Positions 54,158 through 64,000 are shown, counted from the first letter of the stretch. The stretch: 64,000 nt of DNA from Sphingobacterium sp. JB170 (GCF_900163865.1 NZ_FUKU01000014.1:62001-126000), one strand, 5' to 3'. Numbers and translations: made by a program. Notes: generated from the letters alone by a model not told the origin.

Positions 54158-54357
54158 ACTTTTTTCATGATTGACTGTATCGTAGCTGATTTTCAGGGCT
54201 ATATTTTTTTGTTATGAAATTACCTCTCTCTGGGTTAGATGCCGTTAAAGCGGGGAATTTTGTGTAAACTTTGGTTAAAAGTTGTAAATATTATTTAATA
54301 GTCGATTTGTATTCCTTATTTTCGAGCCGTAATATCGGAATACCTTATCAAAATACA

Positions 54358-57300
54358 ATGAGATACAATAAGATTAACAACCTTTTGGGATGGATCTGTG
54401 CGGCAATTGCTACGATAGTTTATGTGGCGACGATCGAACGTACGGTCAGTTGGTGGGATTGTGGGGAGTTTATAGCCTCCGCATTTAAAATGCAAATTGT
54501 TCATCAACCTGGTGCGCCGCTATTTTTAATGATGGAAAATGTTTTCTCAAATTTAGCAATGGGCGATGGTAGTCGCGTTGCTTTTTGGATGAATATGGGT
54601 TCAGCCATTTGTAGTGGACTAACCATTCTTTTCCTATTTTGGACTATTACTGCCCTAGCTCGAAAAATCTTTTCGGGCGTATCTCCTAAAGCAGAGCTCC
54701 CCGCTAATCAGGTATTCATTATTATGGCATCTGGAGTAGTGGGCGCCTTAGCTTATGCTTTTACCGATACATTTTGGTTTTCCGCTGTGGAGGCTGAAGT
54801 CTACGGGATGTCGTCTTTGTGTACGGCGGTAGTATTCTGGGCGATTCTTAAATGGGAAGCATCCGCGGATGAACCTCGCGCGGACAAATGGCTCATTTTG
54901 ATTGCATATATTATGGGGCTATCTATCGGGGTTCACCTTTTGAACTTACTCGTAATCCCAGCTATCGCGCTGGTTATATATTTCCGGAAAACGAAACATG
55001 CTACTAACGCCGGTATTTTCCGTTCGCTTGGTATAGGCGTGGTGGTACTCGGTTTTATTCTTTGGGGGATCATCCAGTTTTCGGTGAAATTTGCTGCGTA
55101 TTTTGATTTGTTTTTCGTCAATACATTAGGAATGGGGTTCGGTTACGGAGTTGCATTCTTTGTGATTTTAGTCGTTGGCGGCTTAATTTACGGGATAAAT
55201 TATTCGATTAAGAAATCTAAGCGTCTTTTAAATATAGCTTTAATATCAACATGCTTTATTATATTAGGGTATAGTTCTTTTGCAATGATTATGATTCGTG
55301 CAAAAGCCGACCCGACACTAAATAACAGTGATCCCGACAATGCGTTTACCTTTTTAAGTTACCTGAACAGAGAGCAATATGGCGATGAGCCTTTGTTTAA
55401 AGGTCGTTTTTTCGATTCGAAAGTTACGGGCGTAGAAGATGGTAAAAATGTATACCGCAAGGATGGTGACAAATATGTTGTTGCTAAACGTAACCCTACT
55501 TATACTTATGATAAGGAAACCTTATTTCCCCGGGTATATAGTGAAAAGAACGGCCATCCGGAATTTTACCGCGAGTTTCTAGGCTTAGGCCCAAATGATG
55601 CACCTACTTTTGCCGATAATATCAAATTCTTTTTCGGCTATCAAATCGGACATATGTATGGACGTTATTTCTTGTGGAATTTCGCCGGCCGGCAAAATGA
55701 CCAGCAAGGGCACGGCTCCTACACGGAAGGGAATTGGATTTCGGGTATCAAGCCCATTGATAATATGTTAGTCGGGGGGCAAAACGTGCTACCCACTTCG
55801 GCCAAAGATGATCCTTCTCGCAATACCTACTTTTTCTTGCCGTTGATGATAGGCTTGATTGGTGCATTTTGGCATTTCGGTAAACGGCAGCGTGATGCAG
55901 GAGTTGTCGGTTTATTGTTTTTCTTTACCGGGATTGCGATCGTACTATATTTAAATCAAACACCGCTGCAGCCCAGGGAACGTGATTATGCTTATGCCGG
56001 ATCGTTCTATGCTTTCAGTATATGGATAGGTCTTGGCGTATTAGCAATCGCGGATTTCTTGAAGAAGAAAACAAATGTGAAAGTGGCCGGTTATGTGGCA
56101 ACTGCTGTAGGCCTGCTTGCAGGACCGGTTATCTTGATTGCCCAGAACTACAATGATCATAACCGATCGGAGAAATCTTTAGCACGAGATATGGCCAGAA
56201 ATTATTTGGAGTCCTGTGCGCCTAATGCTATTTTATTCAGTTATGGTGATAACGACACCTATCCTTTATGGTACGTGCAAGAGGTAGAAGGGTTTCGTAC
56301 AGATGTTCGTGTGGTAAATTTGAGTTTATTAAGTGCAGATTGGTATATGAAACAAATGATGAGTAAAGCCAACGACGCGGACGCCCTACCAATTAATATC
56401 GACCCTGAGCTCATAAAAGATGGTGTTCGTGATGTTATTTACTATCAGGATTATAATATTCCGGGATACGTGCCCGTACAAGATTTATTGAAAGTGATGC
56501 TGTCGGATAATCCGCAGAATAAAGCACAATTACAGAGCGGTGAATTTGTGAACCTACTTCCGACCAAAAAGATGGAGTTAGCTATAGATAAACAGGCGGT
56601 GTTGGCTAATAATGTTGTTCCTAAGGAATGGGAGTCGGCAGTAACTGATACGATGCGCTGGACCTATAGCCAAAATTATGTGAGCCGTGCGGAACTATCG
56701 ATGTTAGCCATTCTAGCGAACAACAACTGGAAGCGTCCGATTTATTTTACGATAACAACGCCGGAAACTAATTATATGGGTTTAGATCGTTTCTTGGTGA
56801 GTGAAGGTTTTGCTTTCCGACTGATGCCGATTGATATGGGACTGAACGAGGGAGATCCGAGCTCTATTATTAACGTTGATCAAACATATGAGAATGTTGT
56901 AAACAAATTCACTTGGGGAAATATAGGGAATGCCGCGTACATTGATCCGGATTCCTATCGATATATCAGCATGTATGTTGGTTCCATATACGGACAGACC
57001 GGGCAGGAGCTGTTAGCTGCAGGGGAGACCGAAAAGGCGAAGAAGCTCGTGCTTGACGCTTACCAAGATATGCCAAAGAAAGCCTTCCTGATGTCCGATG
57101 TGATGAGCTACGTTCCGCTGCTTGAAGTAATGTACAAAGTGGGTGTGTCCGATAAAGCCAGCGAACTTGTCCGGCGTAATTTACAGTTTGTAAAAGAGAA
57201 CATGGCGTATTATGAGGCTGTCGCAGATACAAAGACAAACCTTGAATTTAGGAATATGCGTTATGGTTTAGCATCCATACAGCGTTACAAGCAACTCTTG

Positions 57301-57387
57301 GATCAGGTCGGATCACCGGAAGATAAAAAACTCTCTGACGAGCTGTATCAGAAGTACATTGAATACTTCCAAGAATCAGGCGAATAA
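54358..57387 (+). CDS. GT117 / DUF2723 membrane glycosyltransferase (protein O-mannosyltransferase-like)
   Basis: A 1009-residue integral membrane protein of the DUF2723 family, placed in GT117 and related in fold to protein O-mannosyltransferases. The N-terminal half has about a dozen helices. The first periplasmic loop has TVSWWDCGEFIASAFKMQI, with the Asp and Glu expected to act in catalysis. The middle has NQTPLQPRERDYAYAGSFYAFSIW. The C-terminal part (about 640-1009) is soluble, periplasmic and TPR-like (ETEKAKKLVLDAYQDMP). It likely transfers a lipid-linked sugar to envelope proteins. Start ATG at 54358; upstream in-frame starts are not supported. Confidence 0.85.
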   Translation: MRYNKINNLLGWICAAIATIVYVATIERTVSWWDCGEFIASAFKMQIVHQPGAPLFLMMENVFSNLAMGDGSRVAFWMNMGSAICSGLTILFLFWTITALARKIFSGVSPKAELPANQVFIIMASGVVGALAYAFTDTFWFSAVEAEVYGMSSLCTAVVFWAILKWEASADEPRADKWLILIAYIMGLSIGVHLLNLLVIPAIALVIYFRKTKHATNAGIFRSLGIGVVVLGFILWGIIQFSVKFAAYFDLFFVNTLGMGFGYGVAFFVILVVGGLIYGINYSIKKSKRLLNIALISTCFIILGYSSFAMIMIRAKADPTLNNSDPDNAFTFLSYLNREQYGDEPLFKGRFFDSKVTGVEDGKNVYRKDGDKYVVAKRNPTYTYDKETLFPRVYSEKNGHPEFYREFLGLGPNDAPTFADNIKFFFGYQIGHMYGRYFLWNFAGRQNDQQGHGSYTEGNWISGIKPIDNMLVGGQNVLPTSAKDDPSRNTYFFLPLMIGLIGAFWHFGKRQRDAGVVGLLFFFTGIAIVLYLNQTPLQPRERDYAYAGSFYAFSIWIGLGVLAIADFLKKKTNVKVAGYVATAVGLLAGPVILIAQNYNDHNRSEKSLARDMARNYLESCAPNAILFSYGDNDTYPLWYVQEVEGFRTDVRVVNLSLLSADWYMKQMMSKANDADALPINIDPELIKDGVRDVIYYQDYNIPGYVPVQDLLKVMLSDNPQNKAQLQSGEFVNLLPTKKMELAIDKQAVLANNVVPKEWESAVTDTMRWTYSQNYVSRAELSMLAILANNNWKRPIYFTITTPETNYMGLDRFLVSEGFAFRLMPIDMGLNEGDPSSIINVDQTYENVVNKFTWGNIGNAAYIDPDSYRYISMYVGSIYGQTGQELLAAGETEKAKKLVLDAYQDMPKKAFLMSDVMSYVPLLEVMYKVGVSDKASELVRRNLQFVKENMAYYEAVADTKTNLEFRNMRYGLASIQRYKQLLDQVGSPEDKKLSDELYQKYIEYFQESGE

Positions 57388-59035: not shown

Positions 59036-59067
59036 TGCCTGACTTTTAGAAGTTAGGCACTTTTTTT
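59036..59067 (+). terminator. Terminator of pyrR-pyrB
   Basis: 10-bp arms with one G-T wobble (59036-59045, 59050-59059), TTAG loop, followed by CTTTTTTT. Confidence 0.88.
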
Positions 59068-59226
59068 GGTAAAATGTTCGTTATAATAGTCAGTTACCAA
59101 CAGGTGTTAACAACTTTTGCGGAAAACTTAAAGCATTAGTTCTAATTTAGTACCCTGAAGCTATGTGCTTTTTTGGAGCAAACTTCATTTTTAACACGAT
59201 AATTTAGTTGTTGAATAATCATCAGT

Positions 59227-62200
59227 ATGAATAAAAAAATTTATGGTGTAGGTGTGGCGTTGAGTTTGATGGCGTCAACGTCGTTTGCACAGGAAACGGC
59301 ATGGCAGAAAATAAACAATGCATATAAGTCAGGTATGGAATTGTTTGAAAGAGGGAAATATAGTTCGGCTGCCAAACAATTTGACCGTGTGGAGGAGATA
59401 CGAACGAAATCGACTCTTCAGCTCGATGAAACAGAAGAGCTTACCTTAGTTAAAGAAAATGTCCGTTTTTATCAAGCAATCTGTGCCCTCGAGCTAGGCG
59501 ATTCCAATGCCGAGACACGCTTTTTAAAATATATCAAAGATTATCCAGCGAGTGCAAATTCCAAAGCAGCTTATTTTCAAATTGGAAAATCCTATTACGC
59601 TAAAGAGGACTATACGAAAGCCATTGAGTGGTTCCAAAAAATCGATAGCAAAAATCTTGCGGGAGCTGAAAACACGGAGTACCGCTTCAAGCTTGGTTAT
59701 GCACAGTTTATGACTGGGGATTACAAATCTGCAAAACCACTCTTTGAACGTTTAAAAGACGATAGCGGACAGTACCAAGAAGCATCGATATACTATTACG
59801 CTTATTTATGTTACCTGGATGCGGAATATAAGACGGCTTTAAATGAATTTGAACGGTTAGATGGATCAAAGGCCTATGAAAATAGTTACCCTTATTACAT
59901 CACTGCGTTATATTTCTTGGACAAGCGGTACGACGAAGTATTAGCTTACGCCTTGCCGGTTTTAGACCGCACGAAGCAGGAGAATGAAACCGAACTTTTT
60001 CGTATCGTAGCGGCAACCTATTTTATAAAAGGGGATTTGCAGAAATCGAAAGACTATTACGATAAATTCCAAGCAAAAGACCAGGGCAAGACACAAAATA
60101 ATCAAGATAGTTACCAAATCGGGTACATTGCATATACCTTAGAAGATTATCCCAAAGCGATACAGGAACTAGAAAAACTAACCGAACCGGATGCGTATTA
60201 TCAAAGTGCGATGATCACGCTGGGTGAATCGTTTTTAAAAGAGGGCAACAAGCAAAGTGCGCGTAGCGCTTTCTTTAGAGCCTCAAAATTAGATTTCGAT
60301 CCAGAACTAAAGGAAGAGGGATTGTTTAATTACGGGAAACTATCATATGAATTAGAATTTCATCAAGTGGCGCTTGAATCGGTCCAAGAATATTTGGAAA
60401 CCTACCCAAATTCGACGCGACAAGAAGAGGCGAAAACATTATTAGCCGAAGTGTTGTTGAGTACCAAGAATTATCGCGCAGCGGTCGATATTCTCGAGGG
60501 CATCAACAAACGCGGTCCCCAAGCGAACGCGGCTTATCAAAAAGTGACCTACTATCGTGGTTTAGAATTTTACAATGAAAGAGCGTTCGAAAATGCGATA
60601 TCAATGTTTATCCGATCCGAGGCTAATCGCCACGATGAGGAGATTTACGCGCTTTCATTATACTGGAAAGCGGAAGCCATGTATGAAGTTCGTAAATATG
60701 GTGAGGCCGTAGCAAATTTTAATAAGTTTATGCAGCTTCCAGCATCAAGAAAAACAGACGTTTATAGTTATGCCAATTACGCTTTGGCCTATGCCGCTTT
60801 TCGGAATGACCGTTATACAACGGCAGCTAATTATTTCGAGCGTTTTCTAGCTACAGGCGGTAAAGAAGGTATTGAGATTAATACCCGTAATGACGCTATT
60901 GCCAGACTGGCTGATTCGTACTTTGGAATGAAGAACTATGGCCGGGCGTTATCGTATTACAACCGCCTGATAAGTTCCAAGGCGCCGAGCCAAGATTACG
61001 CGTTATTTCAACGCGGAATCATTCAAGGATTGCAGGGTGATAATAATGGGAAGATTTCGCTCTTAAATTCCGTGGTGGAGCAGTTTCCTAAATCCAACTA
61101 CGCCGATGACGTCGCTTTTGAAGTGCCGTACACTTATTTCTTGATGGGCGATTACGACCGTGCAATTTCTGGACTGCAATTGATGATTGAGGCCTACCCG
61201 CGTAGTAGTTACGTACCACGTGCATTGGTAACGATTGGATTGGTACAATATAACAAGGACGACAACGATGCCGCTTTGAAAACATTTCAACGTGTTGTAG
61301 ATCAGTATGCAACTACTGATGAGGCCAAGCAATCGATGCGTTCGATTGAAAATATCTATTTGGACAAAGGAGACGCGACAGGATATATTCGCTATGCCAC
61401 CAGCACGAATATTGGGGACCTTACCAATGCCGAGCAAGATGGACATACTTTTAGTGTTGCTAGAACATTATTTGATCGTGCAAACTATCAAGGAGCCGTT
61501 GAAGCAGTGAACGCTTATTTTGACAAGTTTTCAAAACCCATTCACGAAAAACATGCACGATTCATTCGTGGAGAAAGCTATGCACAACTTGGACAGGACG
61601 ACGAAGCGTTACATGATTTTAATATTATCATGAACGACTGGACAAGCGCCTATACTGAACAAACCTTAATCAGTGTTGCCCGGTTGCATCTGAAAAAGAA
61701 AGCATACAACGAGGCCGTACAGGTGTTACGTAAACTCGAATTAACTTCCGAGTATAAAGCCAATTACGGTTTTGCAATAAATAATTTGCTGGTAAGTTTC
61801 TATCATATTGGAGACCATGTAGAAACGCAGAATTACGCGAAATTGGTTAAGGAGTACGAGAAATCTTCCGAAGAGGATATCGCCTTAGCGCATCTTTATT
61901 CTGGGAGGGCTTACCAAGCGACTAACAAAGATGCCGAGGCAGCGAAAGAGTTTAATTTAGCCGCATTGAAAAGCAATACGGTAACTGGAGCTGAAGCGCG
62001 CTATCGCGTAGGGGAACTCCAATTAAAAGATAAGCAGTACGACAAGGCAATTGAATCGGCTATGGATATCTCGGATACATTTTCCTCTTACGATTATTGG
62101 GTTGCCAAAGGTTTTATCATGATGGCCGATGCATACCTAGGTAAGGACGATAAATTCCAAGCGAAATCAACACTTGAGAGTGTGATTGATAATTATGAAA

Positions 62201-62256
62201 ACCAAGAAGATGACGTGCTTGAAGAAGCGAAATCTCGTTTGGAAAAATTGAATTAA
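59227..62256 (+). CDS. Large secreted TPR-repeat protein
   Basis: A 1009-residue protein with a signal peptide cleaved after about residue 21 (ASTSFA), then TPR repeats along nearly its whole length. Recurrent signatures are YFQIGKSYYAKEDYTKAIEWFQKI, FKLGYAQFMTGDYKSAKPLFERL, IGYIAYTLEDYPKAIQEL and RLADSYFGMKNYGRALSYYN. Many are of the YfiO/BamD-like type: FPKSNYADDVAFEV and YPRSSYVPRALVTIG. It lies in the periplasm, probably near the outer membrane, as a scaffold. The next gene codes for an outer-membrane barrel and starts 16 nt later, so the two are an operon and likely partners. No known function. Confidence 0.85.
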   Translation: MNKKIYGVGVALSLMASTSFAQETAWQKINNAYKSGMELFERGKYSSAAKQFDRVEEIRTKSTLQLDETEELTLVKENVRFYQAICALELGDSNAETRFLKYIKDYPASANSKAAYFQIGKSYYAKEDYTKAIEWFQKIDSKNLAGAENTEYRFKLGYAQFMTGDYKSAKPLFERLKDDSGQYQEASIYYYAYLCYLDAEYKTALNEFERLDGSKAYENSYPYYITALYFLDKRYDEVLAYALPVLDRTKQENETELFRIVAATYFIKGDLQKSKDYYDKFQAKDQGKTQNNQDSYQIGYIAYTLEDYPKAIQELEKLTEPDAYYQSAMITLGESFLKEGNKQSARSAFFRASKLDFDPELKEEGLFNYGKLSYELEFHQVALESVQEYLETYPNSTRQEEAKTLLAEVLLSTKNYRAAVDILEGINKRGPQANAAYQKVTYYRGLEFYNERAFENAISMFIRSEANRHDEEIYALSLYWKAEAMYEVRKYGEAVANFNKFMQLPASRKTDVYSYANYALAYAAFRNDRYTTAANYFERFLATGGKEGIEINTRNDAIARLADSYFGMKNYGRALSYYNRLISSKAPSQDYALFQRGIIQGLQGDNNGKISLLNSVVEQFPKSNYADDVAFEVPYTYFLMGDYDRAISGLQLMIEAYPRSSYVPRALVTIGLVQYNKDDNDAALKTFQRVVDQYATTDEAKQSMRSIENIYLDKGDATGYIRYATSTNIGDLTNAEQDGHTFSVARTLFDRANYQGAVEAVNAYFDKFSKPIHEKHARFIRGESYAQLGQDDEALHDFNIIMNDWTSAYTEQTLISVARLHLKKKAYNEAVQVLRKLELTSEYKANYGFAINNLLVSFYHIGDHVETQNYAKLVKEYEKSSEEDIALAHLYSGRAYQATNKDAEAAKEFNLAALKSNTVTGAEARYRVGELQLKDKQYDKAIESAMDISDTFSSYDYWVAKGFIMMADAYLGKDDKFQAKSTLESVIDNYENQEDDVLEEAKSRLEKLN

Positions 62257-62272
62257 TAAGAATTAGGATAGA

Positions 62273-64000
62273 ATGATGAAATTGCATAAAACAGTTTTTA
62301 AAAGTTACGCAATAGTGGCGTTGTTTATGGGGCTAGGTGTTCAGGTCTACGCGCAGCAAACAGATCCAGAGCCTGATAAGCCTGTTACTATCGATTCTTT
62401 TGATGTCGTTCGTGATTATAAACCACTATTGGCCGATGCTGTTAAGATTCGTCGCAGCCCGGACATGACCAATAAGCGTAGCTATATGCCCAAGCTCACG
62501 TACGGGAATATAGCTGATAAAAAACTGGATATAAATACCGGATTGAAGGAACTTAACGTCCAAGAGACGCCGTTTACGATAACCTCGGATCCAACGAGTA
62601 ATTATGTGAAATTCGGATTGGGAAATTTCAATACAATACTTGGTGAGGGCTATTTTGCATACGATGCCTATGAAGATCTTCGTGTAGGTGGTTTTGTAAA
62701 ACATCTGAGCCAAAAAGGAAGTTTGGAGGCCCAAAAATTTTCTAAGCAAGAAGTTGGTGTTTTCGGACGTCGAATCTTACCACTATTTACTGTGGATGGG
62801 GTGATTGGGTATAACCGTTATGCCACCAACTTTTACGGTATACCATATGCCGATGATGGTGTAACGCTACTTAATCCTTCAACAGAGAAACAAGCTTTTA
62901 ACGATATTTACTTTACAGGAGAGTTGACTAGCAATTATGACCCTGAAAACGAAAATGCCACGAGTTTCTCCGCAAAGATTGACGCGTATTCCTTTGGTGA
63001 TAAATATGACGGCAAAGAAACGTCTGTTGCACTATCTGGTTATTTAAATAAAAGAGTGCGTGCATTTAATATTGGAGCGAATGTCGCGGTAGATATTAAT
63101 AACGTCAAAGGAACTAACGCACCGGGCGGGAATACAACAAAAAATTCCTTCGCAAATTTGAACCCTTATATCCGGTTCAAGGGTGATAACTACGCGGTAA
63201 CATTGGGCGCTAATTTTGTTCCTGAGTTTGGTGATAGCTCAAGTTTTAATATTTTCCCATCCGCGGAAGTTGACTTTGCACTTGCACCGGAGTATTTCCA
63301 TATTTTCGGGGGAGTGAATGGCGGTGTTCGTAAAGCATCATACCGAGACTTTGCCAGGGAAAATCCATTTTTAGGACCGAATTTAGCGATACAGAATACT
63401 GTTGAAAGAATAAATTTTTACGGTGGTATCAAAGGGAATGCCGGGGCAACCTTTGGCTATAAGGTGAAAGCGATTTATCGTCAATTAGAAGGTCTGCCGC
63501 TATTTGTGAATAATGCAGATAGACCATTCCAATTTGATTTGGTGTATGATGGCGATGGAGACGAGGCGGTAAAACATTTTGGAATCGAAGGGGAAATTAA
63601 TGTAAGGTTATCGGAAATTGTGAATTTAGGCGGCCGGTTAAACATTGATGAATACACGATGGCCCAACAAGAAGAGGCTTGGCATATGCCGAAGTTACGT
63701 CTAGCGGCAAACGCAAGGTTCAATATTTCTGAAAAACTATATATCGATGCCGAGGCTTTGTTCCACGGGAAAGCGTATGCGAAAGATTGGGATGACCCAA
63801 TGAGTGATTTGGGAAACCAGCAAACGTATAGCAAAGCCGAAATTCCATCTTTCGTGGATGTGAGTGCTGGTGCAGAATATAAGGCGACCAAGCAGCTCGG
63901 TTTGTTTGTAAAGGCAAACAATCTATTCAATAAGGAATACGAAACTTATCTTTATTATCCTAAATTAGGTTTTAATATTATAGGTGGTTTAAATTTTTCA
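62273..64000 (+). CDS. Outer-membrane beta-barrel protein (runs to the window edge)
   Basis: The visible 576 codons have a signal peptide ending near residue 27 (VQVYA), a short periplasmic stretch with DSFDVVRDYKPLLADAVKIRR, then alternating beta-strands rich in Gly, Tyr and Phe, of a TonB-receptor-like or porin-like barrel. I see no TonB box or classic plug. The last residues, GFNIIGGLNFS, look like the final strand; the stop should follow within a few codons. It starts 16 nt after the TPR gene. The protein could carry substrates across the outer membrane with the TPR partner; the substrate is unknown. Confidence 0.8.
   Translation, partial: MMKLHKTVFKSYAIVALFMGLGVQVYAQQTDPEPDKPVTIDSFDVVRDYKPLLADAVKIRRSPDMTNKRSYMPKLTYGNIADKKLDINTGLKELNVQETPFTITSDPTSNYVKFGLGNFNTILGEGYFAYDAYEDLRVGGFVKHLSQKGSLEAQKFSKQEVGVFGRRILPLFTVDGVIGYNRYATNFYGIPYADDGVTLLNPSTEKQAFNDIYFTGELTSNYDPENENATSFSAKIDAYSFGDKYDGKETSVALSGYLNKRVRAFNIGANVAVDINNVKGTNAPGGNTTKNSFANLNPYIRFKGDNYAVTLGANFVPEFGDSSSFNIFPSAEVDFALAPEYFHIFGGVNGGVRKASYRDFARENPFLGPNLAIQNTVERINFYGGIKGNAGATFGYKVKAIYRQLEGLPLFVNNADRPFQFDLVYDGDGDEAVKHFGIEGEINVRLSEIVNLGGRLNIDEYTMAQQEEAWHMPKLRLAANARFNISEKLYIDAEALFHGKAYAKDWDDPMSDLGNQQTYSKAEIPSFVDVSAGAEYKATKQLGLFVKANNLFNKEYETYLYYPKLGFNIIGGLNFS

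Follow-up and report, generated by a model that had tools for sequence, protein, structure and literature searches.

The window, a stretch of 64,000 nucleotides from Sphingobacterium sp. JB170 (GCF_900163865.1, NZ_FUKU01000014.1:62001-126000), closes with a pair of genes on the same strand that encode a 1009-residue exported protein built of TPR repeats and, after a spacing of 16 nt, an outer-membrane barrel protein (Table 1). An earlier note on this DNA had described the two proteins as adjoining at this distance, and both the open reading frames and their pairing were borne out. Reading of the contig established that the barrel gene spans 62273-64006 and encodes 577 amino acids, the end of the window removing its last Phe codon and the stop codon. 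Between pyrB and the TPR gene lies an intrinsic terminator, recognized by consensus match, with its stem at 59036-59059 and a T-run thereafter; it probably delimits the transcription unit of the pair on its upstream side and, because so strong a terminator-like site follows pyrB, the TPR gene probably begins a transcript of its own.

Table 1. Features of the TPR-barrel locus and of the genes that follow it. Positions are those of the window; for genes beyond its end, 59000 was added to the coordinates of locus L002.
Feature	Position	Strand	Basis
Intrinsic terminator after pyrB	59036..59068	+	10-pair stem TGCCTGACTTTTAGAAGTTAGGCA then CTTTTTTT; consensus match only
Exported TPR scaffold gene (CpoB/YbgF-like repeats), 1009 aa	59227..62256	+	TPR families, TIGR02795 match
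Signal peptide of TPR protein, residues 1-21	59227..59289	+	MNKKIYGVGVALSLMASTSFA before Q, by eye; without lipobox
Plug-less TBDT-like outer-membrane barrel gene (predicted), part in window	62273..64000	+	AF2 model, BtuB/FhuA matches
Signal peptide of barrel protein, residues 1-27	62273..62353	+	MMKLHKTVFKSYAIVALFMGLGVQVYA before Q, by eye
TonB-box-like tail motif, barrel residues 38-65	62384..62467	+	Class alignment, PWM test, genome-wide uniqueness
Barrel domain, residues 111-577	62603..64000	+	AF2 model, pLDDT mostly 70-90
HU-CCDC81/SPOR protein	64048-65088	+	Family-based SPOR assignment
TolQ/ExbB	65118-65822	+	PF01618, E 2.6e-21
TolR/ExbD	65846-66253	+	PF02472, E 4.3e-23
TolA/TonB-like protein, one TM segment (by eye)	66316-67143	+	C-terminus aligned to TonB
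folC	67239-68528	+	

The repeats of the TPR protein extend over nearly its whole length, with at least seven TPR_6 stretches and E-values for the TPR families of Pfam down to 1.3e-36. Its score against TIGR02795 (tol_pal_ybgF) was 173 bits, above the equivalog cut-off of 90.1, and the same model was matched by all 35 members of the protein from the class; because TPR models cross-react, these matches denote similarity of repeats and do not prove orthology with CpoB/YbgF. Sequence searches of the PDB returned generic TPR matches only and no relative of the barrel, and a fold search with the model of the TPR protein found generic TPR superhelices only, mostly eukaryotic.

An AF2 model of the barrel protein (mean pLDDT 73) has a barrel of about 22-24 strands at residues 111-576, preceded by a disordered stretch (residues 24-107), and the C-terminal sequence GGLNFSF is a typical outer-membrane protein ending. 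Among solved structures, BtuB and FhuA come closest to this model (Foldseek E 1e-15, TM about 0.6), with VIA-align giving Z up to 22 and rmsd 3.5 over 413 residues. A Pfam search matched no family, the barrel is absent from the 105 genome-wide matches to Plug (PF07715) at E<=1e-5, and among 39 members from the class none contained Plug and one touched TonB_dep_Rec_b-barrel. Given the likeness of the model to BtuB and FhuA and the absence from the 105 Plug matches, the protein is predicted to be a plug-less barrel of the TBDT type. Its closest counterpart among named barrels is from S. shayense (91% identity). The earlier note had seen neither a plug nor a TonB box; the absence of the plug was confirmed, but a TonB-box-like peptide, IDSFDVVRDYKPLLADAVKIRRSPDM, was found at the mature N-terminus. 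Compared to the TBDTs BtuB and FhuA, the barrel fold and such an N-terminal peptide are shared, whereas the protein described here lacks the plug and has a short disordered tail, fixed neighbours and no import genes.

A class-wide alignment and a set of 68 barrels placed this peptide within a longer motif between the signal peptide and the barrel, E-[VI]-x-[VI]-[VI]-x-x-[YF]-x-P-x-[LI]-x-[DE]-A-x-K-I-x3-P, which is recognizable in most lineages aligned and looser in families f3, f6 and f8-f10. The mean pair score of the motif, 1.13, exceeds that of the barrel (0.84) and that of the linker after the motif (0.21), so that the motif is the best conserved of the three. With a six-residue SusC-type PWM built on 27 genuine TonB boxes of the same genome, the tails averaged 6.5 bits, compared to 2.0 for shuffled tails and -1.1 for control windows in the barrel body, and the best window coincided with the motif in 54 of the 68. 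An HMM of the full motif, which extends beyond the TonB-box-like stretch, gave no significant match to genuine pre-plug TonB boxes. Outside the class, some homologues carry PEVIVTG or PEFVITG in the tail, which by eye resembles a textbook TonB box; with the PWM, one of 12 tails from outside the class scored high (L320) and most were unrecognized. The tail motif is thus a likely but unproven TonB box.

In a search of 27 genomes, the motif gave significant matches in two proteins, the barrel and a protein of about 830-875 amino acids that is present in some Sphingobacteriaceae. This second carrier is a natural fusion of the first 60-80 residues of the barrel protein (signal peptide and motif) with residues 244-1009 of the TPR protein. 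In some Parapedobacter, its gene lies within the operon, between the TPR and barrel genes; in the genome studied here it is encoded on contig C40 (L029:5889-8423, minus strand) as a single-gene locus. Since a natural gene fusion joins the two, it suggests that tail and TPR repeats act in one complex. An AF2 model of a Parapedobacter fusion (L126:7448-9982) left the tail unplaced (pLDDT <50) and not docked on the TPR region.

The distribution of the pair was followed across Bacteroidota, class and order being read from kinship labels together with named Sphingobacteriaceae loci. The barrel was found in all 61 genomes of the source family, in 72 of 73 genomes of the same class in one sample (family profile), and in 40 of 40 in a second (class-wide profile, E <= 1.3e-113); almost every genome of the class has a single full-length copy, irrespective of lifestyle. 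In a second order, reached through genome G284 and Bacteroidales-like in its members, about 49 of the 59 genomes gave a strong match; the ten or so that did not are G358, G361, G362, G380, G381, G389, G400, G401, G402 and G405. Of 122 class loci read with ORF and HMM scans, 119 have the TPR gene directly upstream of the barrel gene and on its strand, and the remaining three begin at the end of a contig; the adjacency was thus kept in 119 of 119 testable loci. The same holds for all 29 testable loci of the second order, where L212 begins at a contig end. The median gap is 15 nt. Pairing in 119 of 119 class loci is far beyond chance. The view of the earlier note that these genes may form an uncharacterised envelope pair was upheld, the pair being conserved across Bacteroidota, and none of the findings named there as contrary to it (a normal plug, SusD neighbours, a loss of the pairing) was made.

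In the source strain, the pair is followed by genes for an HU/SPOR protein, TolQ, TolR, a TolA-like protein and folC, so that the operon contains the TolQ/ExbB and TolR/ExbD subunits of a proton channel. The best NCBIfam match of the TolQ protein was TIGR02796 (tolQ), at 61.5 bits and below the equivalog cut-off of 221. SPOR was matched by 17 of 20 relatives of the HU-SPOR protein and HU-CCDC81_bac_2 by 16 of 20; with the source strain only the HU part was significant, and its SPOR domain is assigned through the family. The TolA-like protein scored 13.8 bits with PF03544 (TonB_C), under the cut-off of 24.6, and its C-terminus aligned with those of TonB proteins over 37 columns with an hhalign probability of 77.5 (E 1.9e-5). 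Genome-wide, there are two TonB_C matches over the cut-off compared to 105 Plug matches, and one of the two is an ORF a few genes downstream of the operon (L002:13153-13998, minus strand). Neither a TolB propeller nor a Pal lipoprotein was identified in the operon, nor was either seen in the loci that were read from other families and classes.

The complete order TPR-barrel-HU/SPOR-TolQ-TolR-TolA(-folC) recurs in the source family (f1), f8 and f9, and partially in f10. In f2, HU-SPOR alone follows the pair in most loci, and f3-f7 and f11 have the pair by itself, with the motor elsewhere in the genome. Where the motor does not adjoin the pair, each of the 24 class genomes searched has one clearly best TolQ orthologue, and of the 20 loci read, 19 have TolR beside TolQ, frequently together with TolA and folC (no TolR was recognized in L183); in family f5, this motor has two tandem TolR/ExbD genes (L186:5982-6765, L189:5819-6630 and L190:482-1321). 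Loci outside the class, reached through full-length barrel homologues and hence an independent test of the linkage to the motor, have the order TPR-barrel-SPOR-TolQ-TolR-TolA (L319, L321 and L324), barrel-SPOR-TolQ-TolR-TolA (L313-L318), or retain TPR-barrel (L320, L322 and L323). The simplest reading of these gene orders would be an ancestral operon that was later split in some lineages, and the membership of the pair in the TolQRA motor gene set is well supported by them. In distant families, a gene for an FtsE-like ABC ATPase was noticed by eye next to the pair or close to TolQR (L157:4002-4685, L162:4350-5030 and L181:7216-7908), another hint of a division context.

These neighbours bear directly on what the pair may do. 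The earlier note had proposed an exopolysaccharide export pore of the type of PgaA and BcsC or of AlgK-AlgE, in which a TPR region is likewise coupled to an outer-membrane barrel, and had pointed to a glycan cluster at 30-39 kb, some 20 kb away in the window, as a possible source of substrate. Adjacency of the TPR protein and the barrel is common to both, but the known export systems have another class of barrel, other neighbours and no proton motor. The structural matches listed for the barrel are TBDTs, with 16-18-strand export barrels not among the top matches listed (an absence that is not in itself an exclusion), and no polysaccharide synthase or co-polymerase genes are found among the conserved neighbours, inside or outside the class. 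The glycan cluster lies outside the conserved neighbourhood and nothing in relatives connects it with the pair; that link was rejected. With TolQRA and SPOR kept with the pair, an energised Tol/Ton arm is favoured over an exopolysaccharide pore, and the PgaA/AlgK-AlgE reading, which neither the neighbours nor the type of barrel favour, was rejected as highly improbable.

The alternative offered in the earlier note, a receptor with a helper scaffold, came closer to the evidence than the export pore, although no indication of an import substrate was found. In its fuller form, the pair would be a dedicated importer: a TonB-dependent channel for nutrients that has an unusual mini-plug and its own TolQRA/Ton motor, the TPR protein serving as a substrate-handling scaffold. 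A TBDT-like barrel, a TonB-box-like tail and a motor in the operon are what such a channel would have, but its Plug domain is absent, its partner is a SPOR/HU protein, no SusD or catabolic genes are conserved near the pair in the class families, and its near-constant single copy differs from the pattern of variable transporters. We regard an importer as unlikely.

Somewhat poorer odds attach to an energised device for export or assembly, by which lipids, lipoproteins or proteins would be moved to or through the outer membrane as the T9SS uses GldLM. The combination of a large scaffold, a wide plug-less barrel and a motor would suit it, and partial similarity to PorW/SprE was found in 34 of 35 class members of the TPR protein; the score with the T9SS PorW/SprE model (NF052312), however, was 42.1 bits, far under the cut-off of 250, no secretion genes occur in the conserved neighbourhood in the class or outside it, and the SPOR partner points instead to the septum. 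A similarly low probability is given to the pair being an essential outer-membrane unit by itself, for example in OMP biogenesis, with the motor operon merely a convenient neighbour. That the pair is intact in families whose motor lies elsewhere agrees with this, but recurrence of one gene order in distant classes is difficult to account for unless the function is shared. Moreover, the solved BAM complex of F. johnsoniae comprises BamG (FadL-like), BamH, BamM and BamP, with no TPR protein described (PMC12611786); these subunits do not correspond to such a pair, and membership in BAM was rejected.

The explanation we prefer, with a probability of about 55%, is that the TPR protein and the barrel form, in the periplasm and in the outer membrane, one arm of a trans-envelope system of the Tol/Ton type. 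The genomes show the gene set, its order and its conservation, and that of the tail; the barrel is predicted to be of TBDT type, to have lost its plug and to retain the conserved, TonB-box-like tail on its periplasmic side; from these we infer the contacts, the direction of force and the septal role that follow. TolQR would move TolA at the expense of the proton motive force, and the C-terminal domain of TolA would grip the tail of the barrel as TonB grips a TonB box. The TPR protein would organise this contact as a CpoB-like scaffold, and the SPOR protein would bring the complex to septal peptidoglycan, such that the two together could tie the barrel to it. The cycle would then exert a pull on the outer membrane, or anchor it, where the cell divides, performing in Bacteroidota the job of Tol-Pal without the classical TolB-Pal in the operon. 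Against the Tol/Ton reading stand the non-significant comparison of the tail HMM with TonB boxes, the TonB_C score below its cut-off and the undocked tail of the fusion, as well as the operon having no TolB or Pal and the location of the motor elsewhere in f3-f7 and f11.

The likeness to Tol-Pal (TolQ-TolR-TolA-TolB-Pal-CpoB) comprises a TolQ/TolR-type motor, a TolA/TonB-like transducer, a CpoB/YbgF-like TPR protein and a link to division, here a putative one through SPOR. Unlike Tol-Pal, the operon has no TolB or Pal and instead a barrel with a TonB-box-like tail; its TPR protein is several times the length of CpoB, and an HU-SPOR protein is built in. Because TolB and Pal are not part of the locus, the system is classed as Tol/Ton-like and not as Tol-Pal. 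In Bacteroidetes, a 2025 survey could identify neither pal nor any tol-pal locus, and it proposed PorE, a CpoB-TolB-Pal fusion and putative tether of the outer membrane to peptidoglycan, as a substitute (PMC12204202). The operon is another candidate for the Tol-Pal role that is apparently missing from Bacteroidota; PorE differs in being a lipoprotein encoded outside the operon, and the two could be partners. A bolder version, in which the missing Tol system of Bacteroidota and related classes has its transducer pull directly on a plug-less, TBDT-derived barrel, with the TonB box turned into a tether and no TolB-Pal, is offered tentatively as the less probable form of the idea. A gene named tolA in C. 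hutchinsonii (chu_0135), a putative counterpart only, was deleted without effect on growth on cellulose (PMC5891637). No description of a TPR-barrel-SPOR-TolQRA operon was found in the open-access papers searched, which does not prove priority.

For the question of how the outer membrane is constricted and stabilised at division in Bacteroidota, which are major gut and environmental bacteria, the operon provides a concrete, mostly single-copy and almost universally kept gene set. It also suggests that a TBDT barrel without its plug may be reused as a mechanical anchor. Upstream of the pair by three genes, at 54271-57387 of the window on the plus strand, is a gene for a TMEM260-like protein O-mannosyltransferase (PF11028, E 4.5e-72). 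In most Sphingobacterium loci this gene stays beside pyrR-pyrB and the pair, and it may be relevant to the O-glycosylation of exported proteins.
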